Source: Bacteroidota bacterium
GTDB taxonomy: Bacteria > Bacteroidota > Bacteroidia > Chitinophagales > Chitinophagaceae
Assembly (NCBI GenBank): GCA_013285595.1
Contig: JABDHF010000001.1
Coordinates: 38,904 to 102,903, forward strand
Reading direction: 5' to 3'
Length of the DNA: 64,000 nucleotides
Under the pieces are notes generated by a model. The model was not told the origin of the DNA. It did no database searches and was given only the letters and a program-made list of their open reading frames with translations. Below are positions 30,839 through 34,485 of the stretch, in pieces (the stretch's first letter is position 1; each line of letters starts with the position of its first letter). The translations under genes and the position numbers were made by a program.

Positions 30839-32167
30839 TTATTTTGAGTTTTGATTTAGTAAATTAATTACACCTTCTTTCTGCAATATACGGTACCCTA
30901 TGCGGTCATTTGAAATGCCACTCTTTAGCTCGTAAGTAAACCGGTAGTTGCCGTTTTCTGCCATTTGGGTAACAAAATAAGAGAAAATTATTTTGCTGTT
31001 TGTGCTGAATTGCTGGGCCACTTCATACAAGTGTGTTGACAATATCATCAGGTGGTTAGGGTGGTGCAGCAGCCCTTCTATTACCGCTTTGGTACACTCG
31101 TACGCATCGTGTACGTTAGTACCTTTGAATAGCTCATCCATTAGTACAAGATGCGGCTCATGCTGCAACAGCTTTTCAGCAGTTTGCTTCATTCGCTGCA
31201 CTTCGGCAAAGAAGTAACTTTCGCCGCGGAGTATGTTGTCTTCCACTTGCATATTGGTGATGATACCTTGCAGAAAACTAGTACGCAATGCGGCTGCAGG
31301 TACACCCATGCCAAGATGCGCCAGTAATGCACCTACACCCAGCGAGCGCATGAATGTCGTTTTGCCAGACATATTGGCGCCGGTGAGCAGCAGAAAATTC
31401 TGGTTATTGCTGAACGAGATGTCGTAGGAAACCGGTTGTTCGAGCAACGGGTGTTTAAGGCCCTTTGCTTCAAAGCATACGGGTATTTCAGGAAGCAGCT
31501 CCGGGAAGATCCATTTGTTTTCGATGGTTGCTTTTGCCATAGCATGCCACGCATCCAGTTTTGCATAGCTGCTTATGAGCCGGTACACCATATTTTTCAT
31601 CTCGCGGCGCACGCGATGATTGAGCAAAAGCAGATCGTTGTACTTCGTATGCTTTGTTATCTCTAGTACTTCGGGCGTAAGGCGGTGCGCCAGCCCTTCT
31701 TTTATTGCATCAAGTTCTCTTTTTAGCGGTGCGGGTACTCCGGCAACTGATGCTGTCTCTGCTAATTGTGTACAGCCTTTTAAAAAATCAGATAAGTGAG
31801 ATAAGGAGAATTGTGTGAAAAAATATTCCTGCTTATTTAAAAGTTTTTGAAAGAAAGAACTAAGTAATAAGGTAACCCCTGTAGGTGGGGTGGAGATGCT
31901 ATCGGCAGACTCAAAGAACTTATCGAGCATTACTAATGTGCCGTTTGAAATTATGGTTGGCCACAGTTCTAAATGGGCAGACCAGAATTTTATAGTGTCT
32001 TGTTGTTCTTTGAGTTTTTCGAATGTGCCAGGTGGATTCTGGATATGCCTGCGTAGTGTGTCTTTGCCGGCATGGGTAATAGCGTGATCTATCAATGCGT
32101 ATACGCCACCGCTGCCATCGGATGGGAAAATAGAGAGATCACGGAGTGTGGTTTTGTCGTTTTGCAT
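30839..32167 (-). CDS. MutS-like ATPase
   Basis: LLTGANMSGKTTFMRSLG Walker A, LVLMDELFKGTNVHDAYECTKAVIEGL; 442 aa with no visible mismatch-binding domain. Confidence 0.85.
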   Translation of the reverse strand: MQNDKTTLRDLSIFPSDGSGGVYALIDHAITHAGKDTLRRHIQNPPGTFEKLKEQQDTIKFWSAHLELWPTIISNGTLVMLDKFFESADSISTPPTGVTLLLSSFFQKLLNKQEYFFTQFSLSHLSDFLKGCTQLAETASVAGVPAPLKRELDAIKEGLAHRLTPEVLEITKHTKYNDLLLLNHRVRREMKNMVYRLISSYAKLDAWHAMAKATIENKWIFPELLPEIPVCFEAKGLKHPLLEQPVSYDISFSNNQNFLLLTGANMSGKTTFMRSLGVGALLAHLGMGVPAAALRTSFLQGIITNMQVEDNILRGESYFFAEVQRMKQTAEKLLQHEPHLVLMDELFKGTNVHDAYECTKAVIEGLLHHPNHLMILSTHLYEVAQQFSTNSKIIFSYFVTQMAENGNYRFTYELKSGISNDRIGYRILQKEGVINLLNQNSK

Positions 32168-32206
32168 TGAGTATATACTTAAGTGCTGCTATATAGTACG
32201 ACGCAA

Positions 32207-32233
32207 GTAGAGACGGATGCATTGCGTCTCTAC
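32207..32233. repeat. REP palindrome distal to the RAYT gene
   Basis: GTAGAGACGgATGCATTGCGTCTCTAC, near-match to the array consensus. Confidence 0.85.
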
Positions 32234-32245
32234 GTTACGACGGGC

Positions 32246-32839
32246 CTACCCGGAGTAGAATTTGTCTTGCTGCCAGTTAGCGGGGTTATTTAAAATATAT
32301 TGTTGGATATGCAGATAAGCCTCTTGGTTTCGAATGATATGATCATGATATCGCTCTTGCCAGCAGAAATGACCTATTAATCTTCTTGTGATCTTACTCA
32401 CTGAAGATTTAAAGCCCCTAACAATAGCACCGAGGTTTTTAGACTGTGGACCAAACTTGTTAGTAGCCTCACCTTCGTTTAATAGATAAGCAGAAAGCTT
32501 AGCTCCAGCAGCTAGTGACAGCAATTTATGTCCATCATTGAAATTGTTTAGATTAAACTCATTTTCGCCAATAGAAATGATTGCATGAAAATGATTAGGC
32601 ATTACCACAAATTCATCTAATGAGATGTTCATATCCGGTCGAATATCCGGAGTTTGCAGCCATTCGCTCTGAACAATAACGCCAATATCATTTAAAATCA
32701 TTTCGCCATTTTGTATTTCGCCGAAAAAATGTTCTTTATTATTTGTGCAAATAGTAATAAAATAGAGTGCCTCGGAATTGTAATTCCAGGTTTTTACTCT
32801 TGTCGTTTCCACTCTATATTTATTGTTGAACAATGTCAT
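32246..32839 (-). mobile_element. REP-associated tyrosine transposase (RAYT; Y1/HUH family) CDS
   Basis: ALYFITICTNNKEHFFGEI, VVMPNHFHAIISI (HxH), WQERYHDHIIRNQEAYLHIQQYILNNPANW; ORF track start (32872) lies inside a REP, so MTLFNNKYRVE start preferred. Confidence 0.92.
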
Positions 32840-32855
32840 TTCATGTCCATGTTTT

Positions 32856-33149
32856 GTAGAGACGCAATGCATTGCGTCTCTACATTATGTTATTGTTTGC
32901 CGCTGTTACTTTTATCCATGTTGCGCAAGCCGCAATGCATTGCGGCTACCACGTTATTGTTTGCCCCTGTTACTTTTTACCCGTGTTGCGCAAGACGCAA
33001 TGCATTGCGGCTCTACCACGTTATTGTTTGCCCCTGTTACTTTTTACCCGTGTTGCGCAAGACGCAATGCACTGCGGCTCTACCACGTTATTGTTTGCCG
33101 CTGTTACTTTTACCCGTGTTGCGCAAGACGCAACGCATTGCGTCTCTAC
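32856..33149. repeat. Array of five REP palindromes at ~66-bp period
   Basis: Centres ~32869.5, 32937.5, 33002.5, 33069.5, 33135.5; first copy is a perfect 28-bp palindrome GTAGAGACGCAATGCATTGCGTCTCTAC; inter-palindrome sequence acgttattgtttgcccctgttactttttacccgtgttgcgcaa is conserved. Confidence 0.95.
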
Positions 33150-33156
33150 GTAAGGG

Positions 33157-34485
33157 TTACCTGTCAAATTTCAAACGCTGACCACGAACCGCGTCATTTA
33201 CTATCCCGTTCTCGTAGGCTATTTCGCCGTTTATAAAGGTGTACTGGACCGATGCCATGAATGTATGCCCATCGAATGGCGACCAGCCGCATTTATAGAG
33301 AATGTTCTGTTTGGCAACGGCTGTTGTATTGTTCATGTTAATCAATACGAGGTCGGCGCAATAGCCTTCTCTTATGTAGCCCCGGTTTGCCAGCTGGAAA
33401 CATTGAGCTGGCGCATGGCTCATTTTTTCCACTACTTTTTCTATGGTGATCTTTCCTTCTTTTACGTATTGCAGCATCAGCAATAAGGAATGTTGTACGA
33501 GTGGTACGCCCGATGGCGCCTGCTGGTAGGGCTGTTGTTTTTCTTCCCAAGTGTGGGGTGCGTGGTCGGTTGCTATTATGTCAAGGCGATCATCGAGCAG
33601 CGCTTCCCATAAAGCCTTTTTGTTTTCGGGGCCTTTGATGGCTGGGTTGCACTTTATGAGGTTGCCGTATTGTGCATAATCATCGGCTGTGAAATGTAGG
33701 TGATGCACACACACTTCTGATGTGATGCGCTTTTCCGTTAACGGTAGCATATTGCTGAAAAGCTGTAGTTCTTTTGCCGTAGATATATGCAGTATGTGCA
33801 GGCGGCTATTGTACTTCATAGCGAGCTGAACGGCTGCGAATGAGCTTGCAAAACAAGCTTCTGCATTGCGAATGAGCGGATGGTAAGATGCATTGTCCGC
33901 ATCGGCATATTTAGCTTTGTTGGCTTTTATGATGTTCTCATCTTCGCAGTGAGTGGCTATTAGTAACTCCGACTCTGAAAATATTTTATTGAGGGTGATG
34001 TAATTATCTACCAGCATATCGCCGGTGCTGGAACCCATAAATATCTTTACTCCGCTCACATCTTTTTTCCTGTCGTTGGTGCGCAGCACTTCGTCTGTGT
34101 TGTTGTTTGCTACGCCCATAAAGAAGGAGTAGTTGGCAACGGATGTAGCCGCACCGATGGCGTATTTCTGTTCCAGTAATTCATGGGTGAGTGCAGGTGG
34201 GTTGGTATTGGGCATTTCCATAAATGAGGTAGTACCTCCCGCTACTGCTGCGCGTGCCTCTGTGGCTATAGTTGCTTTACTTGTGAGGCCCGGCTCCCTG
34301 AAGTGTACCTGGTCATCGATAACACCGGGCAGCAGATGCAGGCCTTCGCCATTAATTTCGCGGGCGCCGGTTGCGGAAATATTGCCGTCGATCTTATCAA
34401 TAAAGCCATCCTTTATCAATACATCTTTTACCTGGCTCTTGCCTTCGTTAACAACGGTAACGTTCTTTATTAGTGTGGAAAACAT
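33157..34485 (-). CDS. pyrC: Dihydroorotase
   Basis: LLPGVIDDQVHFREPGLTSKATIATEARAAVAGGTTSFMEMPNTNPP, ATHCEDE, LHILHISTAKE, IATDHAPH. Confidence 0.9.
   Translation of the reverse strand: MFSTLIKNVTVVNEGKSQVKDVLIKDGFIDKIDGNISATGAREINGEGLHLLPGVIDDQVHFREPGLTSKATIATEARAAVAGGTTSFMEMPNTNPPALTHELLEQKYAIGAATSVANYSFFMGVANNNTDEVLRTNDRKKDVSGVKIFMGSSTGDMLVDNYITLNKIFSESELLIATHCEDENIIKANKAKYADADNASYHPLIRNAEACFASSFAAVQLAMKYNSRLHILHISTAKELQLFSNMLPLTEKRITSEVCVHHLHFTADDYAQYGNLIKCNPAIKGPENKKALWEALLDDRLDIIATDHAPHTWEEKQQPYQQAPSGVPLVQHSLLLMLQYVKEGKITIEKVVEKMSHAPAQCFQLANRGYIREGYCADLVLINMNNTTAVAKQNILYKCGWSPFDGHTFMASVQYTFINGEIAYENGIVNDAVRGQRLKFDR

Follow-up and report, generated by a model that had tools for sequence, protein, structure and literature searches.

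Genomic organization of the locus

The window, i.e. the whole stretch of 64,000 nucleotides analysed here, contains a gene for a REP-associated tyrosine transposase (RAYT) together with several REP palindromes; they occupy the slot that pyrC and a MutS-like gene enclose. Along the minus strand, pyrC is followed by five REPs, RAYT, one REP and the MutS-like gene:

33157-34485, minus strand: pyrC, dihydroorotase (PRK09236, 679 bits, cut-off 535); delimits the slot on the left (coding strand)
32856-33149, minus strand: tandem array of REP plus ~43-bp spacer, one orientation throughout
33126-33149, minus strand: REP copy 5, nearest pyrC; z = -3.3
33060-33083, minus strand: REP copy 4; one stem arm altered, weak hairpin, z = +0.4
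32993-33016, minus strand: REP copy 3; one stem arm altered, weak hairpin, z = -0.7
32928-32950, minus strand: REP copy 2; GTAG foot on the RAYT strand, both stem sides altered, z = -2.7
32856-32883, no strand assigned: REP copy 1, closest to the start of RAYT; double-foot, a perfect palindrome of 28 bp, z = -7.2
32246-32839, minus strand: RAYT gene; Y1/HUH transposase of 197 aa, assigned by motif to subclass 2.4 / group 4
32207-32233, no strand assigned: REP 3' of RAYT; imperfect double-foot palindrome GTAGAGACGGATGCATTGCGTCTCTAC, DNA hairpin z = -4.5
30839-32167, minus strand: MutS-like gene; MutS domain V and, weakly, domain III; delimits the slot on the right

The initial annotation had placed a Y1/HUH gene at 32246-32839, one REP past its stop and five palindromes, and these coordinates were confirmed. 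The REP at 32207-32233 lies 12 bp from the RAYT stop codon, and the stop of pyrC is 7 bp away from the nearest array copy. In most genomes of the genus in which both genes belong to one locus, pyrC and the MutS-like gene are separated by 2-150 bp.

The RAYT gene and its product

Translation of RAYT starts at the ATG that gives a protein of 197 aa, and the same ATG is used in relatives. A longer ORF of 208 aa was rejected; its ATG sits within a REP, and the relatives begin at the inner ATG. The protein possesses the HUH motif N82-H83-F84-H85, a WQ motif (residues 160-161) and the catalytic tyrosine Y181 within YILNNP. Because NHFH, WQ and YILNNP equal the motifs published for TnpAREP subclass 2.4 (NH[IFV]H, WQ, YIxNNP; PMC6006769), the protein is assigned, on motif evidence, to this subclass, which corresponds to group 4. 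In an alignment of the kind proposed in the initial annotation, the HUH and Tyr residues were conserved, with H83, H85 and Y181 invariant across 25 relatives.

The NCBIfam model REP_Tyr_transpos (NF047646) matched the protein with E = 1e-17; the score of 64.2 bits is below the curated cut-off of 80, probably because the model is dominated by groups other than 4. The score for Pfam Y1_Tnp (22.7) was narrowly under its cut-off of 23. A sequence search of the PDB gave 4er8 (TnpAREP) as the top match. An AlphaFold model, which was built from 25 sequences of the window and the loci (pLDDT 82), was also most similar to 4er8, a RAYT with a REP hairpin (E = 2.8e-6; TM-score 0.52/0.61), followed by the transposases of ISDra2 and IS608. 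The low-confidence part of the model (residues ~105-121) is the linker between HUH and Tyr. No palindrome was found within this linker in the window RAYT, whereas the copy in genome G018 and many relatives have one. Double-foot REPs are described for subclass 2.4, as are REPs located in the gene between HUH and Tyr, the latter being frequent but not obligatory (PMC6006769).

RAYT is a domesticated bacterial transposase of a known kind. One copy of a RAYT-family gene was present in the genome of the window (assembly of 2.93 Mb, 59.6% complete). Group-4 RAYTs are described in the literature from genome surveys, and no biochemical tests were found in the cited papers.

In another genome, G024 (L018, 441-1133), the RAYT linker encodes a repeated peptide, ASPHNTGI, which is derived from intragenic REP-like units, and REP arrays with periods of 62 and 85 bp are located on the two sides of this gene.

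REP palindromes and the tandem array

The REPs of the window are double-foot palindromes (GTAG...CTAC) of the type GTAGAGACGCAATGCATTGCGTCTCTAC. Both feet and the perfect 28-bp palindrome are kept only in the array copy nearest RAYT; a perfect palindrome of this length is expected by chance ~2e-4 times per 64 kb (4^-14 per position). The palindromes of the array start at 32860, 32928, 32993, 33060 and 33126, which reproduces the spacings of 68, 65, 67 and 66 bp given in the initial annotation. Its description of the first copy as a perfect 28-bp palindrome (32856-32883), of stems that have diverged in places (changed arms in copies 2, 3 and 4) and of conserved inter-palindrome DNA proved to be right as well. 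The units 32946-33012 and 33013-33079 are 99% identical, and thus the DNA between the palindromes is conserved too; therefore, one or more of the duplications are younger than the rest. Tandem Repeats Finder reported a single array (32860-33149, period 67, 4.4 copies, 90% match). In every unit the GTAG foot is 5' on the RAYT strand, so that GTAG-palindrome-TTGCGCAACACGGGTAAAAAGTAACAGGGGCAAACAATAACGTG is repeated.

When folded as single-stranded DNA and compared to shuffled sequences, copies 1, 2 and 5 and the downstream REP formed better hairpins, and copies 3 and 4 were no better. The stem of copy 2 (GCCGC / GCGGC) represents a compensatory change, although a single case. A CRISPR array was ruled out by the near-identical spacers, as unique ones are expected in CRISPR. 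An Rfam search yielded sub-threshold microRNA models only, which were taken as chance matches.

Tandem REP arrays also occur at other loci with or without RAYT, where they have other spacers and periods of 53, 54, 62, 67 and 85 bp. Such array-like loci were found at RAYT genes (G024, G028- and G021-type loci) and away from any RAYT (G033 and G025). Because of these further loci, and because REP clusters repeated in tandem together with flanking DNA have already been described (PMC3733652), the arrangement of the five-copy array is of a known kind.

REPs elsewhere in the genome and in the genus

REPs were counted by pattern and BLAST searches. In the window genome (2.93 Mb, 59.6% complete), the core GACGCAATGCATTGCGTC with at most two mismatches occurred at 9 sites, in comparison to 0 for the reversed control. 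The same palindrome is present on four other contigs (C4, C8, C9 and C31), a low number that refers to a 59.6%-complete assembly; the expectation of the initial annotation that these REPs mark other genome positions is thereby borne out. The spacer of the array was not found elsewhere in this incomplete assembly.

Among 35 genomes of the genus, 15 had a RAYT match and 16 had GTAGAGACG-N-CGTCTCTAC palindromes. Presence of REPs was associated with presence of RAYT (Fisher p = 0.044), and the mean REP count was 6.7 in RAYT-bearing genomes versus 1.6 in the others (Mann-Whitney p = 0.008); five RAYT-bearing genomes showed no REP of the searched pattern. In the 99%-complete genome G033, 25 window-type REPs were detected and no RAYT at E <= 0.001 with this query; either the transposase was lost, or it is too divergent for the query.

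About 60 REPs with flanks from six related genomes were mostly solo 28-bp palindromes with unrelated flanks and a weak RWRAT preference after the foot. The dispersed element is the 28-bp palindrome alone, and the ~66-bp unit is a local tandem duplication. The amplified unit of palindrome plus ~45 bp that was proposed initially consequently applies inside the array; elsewhere it does not, given the mostly solo palindromes and a spacer that was not found in the genome.

The pairing of RAYT and REP was analysed at 81 RAYT loci, namely the window and 80 named records, most of them from Bacteroidota. Footed palindromes were located within 600 bp of RAYT in 60 of them, and were 27-fold denser near RAYT (94 in 140 kb) than farther off (8 in 324 kb). 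None of 5000 permutations gave as good a match between the palindromes on the two sides of one RAYT. The stem cores differ by locus (CAATGCATTG in the window, GGATGCATCC in G021 and G025, CAAGCATTG in G024, TTGCACTGCAA in G027), and the feet are unchanged. Locus-specific stems with constant feet are the pattern expected of cognate pairs. Literature searches on CCCCGAAGGGG repeats gave nothing relevant, and nothing was found that combines REP, tyrosine transposase and Chitinophaga.

Comparison with known systems

The locus resembles TnpAREP subclass 2.4 (Quentin et al. 2018, PMC6006769), or RAYT group 4 of Bertels, in the motifs NHFH, WQ and YIxNNP, in the double-foot GTAG...CTAC REPs on both sides, in the variable HUH-Tyr linker, in the occurrence in Bacteroidota and in the low copy number. 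It differs from this subclass in a linker without REP and in the five-unit tandem REP array alongside. A RAYT flanked by REPs is also the arrangement of the REPtrons that were described together with REP clusters of GTAG families (Di Nocera et al. 2013, PMC3733652); that survey, however, lists the CGTC type and not GTAG for Bacteroidetes, whereas the window REPs have GTAG at both ends. Regular REP spacing and conserved inter-REP DNA are shared with the BIMEs and REPINs of E. coli and Pseudomonas (PMC2817692, PMC3116915), which are next to a RAYT in about one third of the described cases. These alternate or invert their REPs, while all units of the window array point one way. E. coli TnpAREP (4er8) has the same fold and the same order of HUH, W and Tyr motifs as the window RAYT, but the identity is ~18%, and in E. 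coli the HUH motif is of the EHMH type, the Tyr motif is YIYINP and the REP has a single foot.

Interpretation of the locus and origin of the array

The locus is very likely a REPtron of a Chitinophagaceae-like bacterium, i.e. a group-4 (subclass 2.4) RAYT that, together with its cognate double-foot REPs, has inserted into the pyrC/MutS-like slot. The initial reading as a RAYT with cognate REPs agrees with the motifs, the fold and the flanking REPs. Among the members of this described family, the locus is sound yet ordinary. Against this reading stand the scores below the NCBIfam and Pfam cut-offs, the REPs of G033, where the query detected no RAYT, and the five RAYT-bearing genomes that lack REPs of this pattern. 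By analogy with E. coli TnpAREP, the protein would bind REP hairpins in single-stranded DNA and read the GTAG foot, and it would cut and rejoin DNA by means of the HUH site and Tyr181. Its action over time may have seeded the solo 28-bp REPs, which do exist elsewhere in the genome. The same-strand placement in a compact gene pair suggests that RAYT is probably expressed through read-through from pyrC. The initial annotation had also called the locus active or recently active; this has weak support, in view of one gene copy, few dispersed REPs (in the 59.6%-complete assembly) and two of five hairpins that fold no better than shuffles.

The array would have arisen locally by tandem duplication of one REP with its ~43-bp neighbour, via slippage or unequal recombination, since units 2 and 3 are near-identical and the spacer is absent elsewhere. 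Local duplication is the simplest account of the array.

It is unlikely that the spacer derives by decay from the leader and first codons of RAYT, in which case the array would reflect partial duplications of the REPtron 5' end that occurred repeatedly. At an equivalent position behind the REP, the spacer can be aligned locally with the leader and first codons of the window RAYT (AACATGGA...CAACAATAA) and with the G018 RAYT leader (AACAC..TAAAAAGTAA). The shuffle p value of ~0.015 was obtained with the better-fitting spacer variant in each case and is uncorrected for the ten loci tried. In a position-anchored test against the window, however, p was 0.05 and 0.04, with matched A+T it was 0.15 and 0.09, and no match was seen for the leaders of eight further RAYTs. 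The likeness of these sequences is suggestive only.

Selection for the array as a transcription terminator or RNA-stability element of pyrC is quite improbable. In its favour, the array begins 7 bp past the pyrC stop, a place downstream of genes is common for REPs (PMC3733652), and one copy has the compensatory stem change (GCCGC/GCGGC). Nevertheless, no T run follows any palindrome on the pyrC/RAYT strand, which also speaks against the terminator for the dihydroorotase gene suggested initially, and the sole terminator-like match is on the opposite strand at chance level. Moreover, the poor folding of copies 3 and 4 is at odds with such a role, and in most relatives the 2-150 bp between pyrC and the MutS-like gene are without an array.

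We consider it very improbable that the ~66-bp unit of palindrome and spacer is itself mobile and copied as a whole by RAYT. Spacer and palindrome are indeed conserved together; G033 (L190) has two units with a 67-bp period and a similar 3' tail (GCGAAACACGG), and single REPs with a GCGAAACACGG-like tail occur in G025 (L193) and G021 (L194). On the other hand, most of the ~60 REPs from six genomes share no flank beyond the weak RWRAT at the foot, the spacer was not found elsewhere in the window genome, and the arrays of other loci differ in spacer and period. A classical IS200/IS605 insertion sequence moving as a whole is hardly credible. The HUH/Y1 fold shared with the TnpA proteins of IS608 and ISDra2 would fit it, but the motifs NHFH and YILNNP are those of class 2 and not DH[VI]H and Y[IV]ENQ, the gene is present in a single copy, and the flanking REPs are dispersed without it.

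The slot in related genomes

The content of the slot (window positions 32168-33156; L060-L089) varies by species: in some it is empty, and in others there are lone REPs, a subclass 1.2-like transposase, or a RAYT, which may be broken. In G018 (L078, 940-1500), a RAYT occupies the same slot; it is truncated before the catalytic Tyr, and one REP is located inside the linker and another at the end. This is the only other genome with a RAYT at the slot, and it is devoid of such a five-copy array; the array is therefore not static, in line with the initial annotation. The tree neither supports nor rejects a single ancestral insertion of the RAYTs of the window genome and G018 (AU p = 0.51). One or two REPs without a gene are present in the slot of G025, G019 and G033.

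A different Y1 transposase of 153 aa with the motifs DHIH, WQ and YILNQEEHH occupies the slot in G020, G024 and G031 (IS200 model, E = 2e-18). It fits the published subclass 1.2 signature Y---Q--HH, a class assigned by motif only. Within the genus, no other protein is as close to these three as they are to one another (78-84%, versus 65% for the next), and a single insertion may therefore be their common origin. More than one order of slot events is compatible with the species tree. The slot of G029 (L071) contains a pair of CCCACGGTTgAAACCGTGGG palindromes, possibly of a further REP-like family, and the same stem also flanks a subclass 1.2-like gene in G027 (L297).

Hairpins of subclass 1.2-like transposases

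Subclass 1.2 has been recorded without REPs (PMC6006769). At the subclass 1.2-like loci of the genus (L275-L304), GC-rich hairpins were found at 7.1 per kb within 300 bp of the gene versus 0.92 farther off. At 30 loci from other genera of the order (L305-L334), the densities were 6.1 versus 0.91 per kb, and 26 of these loci had at least one hairpin. The enrichment is ~7-fold over background, and the result for the genus was thus repeated across the order; the survey covered the genus and the order, with subclass 1.2 assigned by motif only. One hairpin was exactly matched on both sides of the same gene in 13 of 20 and in 7 of 13 loci, and none of 5000 permutations matched as well in either of the two sets. 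The hairpins are locus-specific, and the distance between neighbours is mostly 49-57 bp. The window genome has its own subclass 1.2-like cases (G000:C106:129-560 and G000:C39:3537-3935).

The AACCCCGAAGGGGTGACATTATTATAG hairpin family is dispersed also away from any subclass 1.2-like gene. It occurs in G002, G003, G009, G024, G029 and others (L255-L274) in direct pairs with a distance of 50 bp; the ~22-24 bp in their interior lack conservation, and in G003:C107 four follow one another.

A tentative reading, to which we give slightly less than an even chance, is that the slot is a recurrent home of two Y1-transposase/hairpin classes, that subclass 1.2-like transposases have their own cognate arrays, and that hairpin families are general to Y1 transposases of Bacteroidota and not restricted to RAYTs.

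Significance

By itself, the finding of a RAYT with its REPs confirms known biology. The locus is a usable model for the making and loss of REPs, because an intact gene and a perfect cognate REP lie next to copies in graded states of decay, and because orthologous sites can be compared, with a broken gene in G018 and an empty slot in many other genomes. The hairpins of the subclass 1.2-like transposases are the more novel observation, and with arrays of this kind, more enzymes would count as producers of REP-like repeats.
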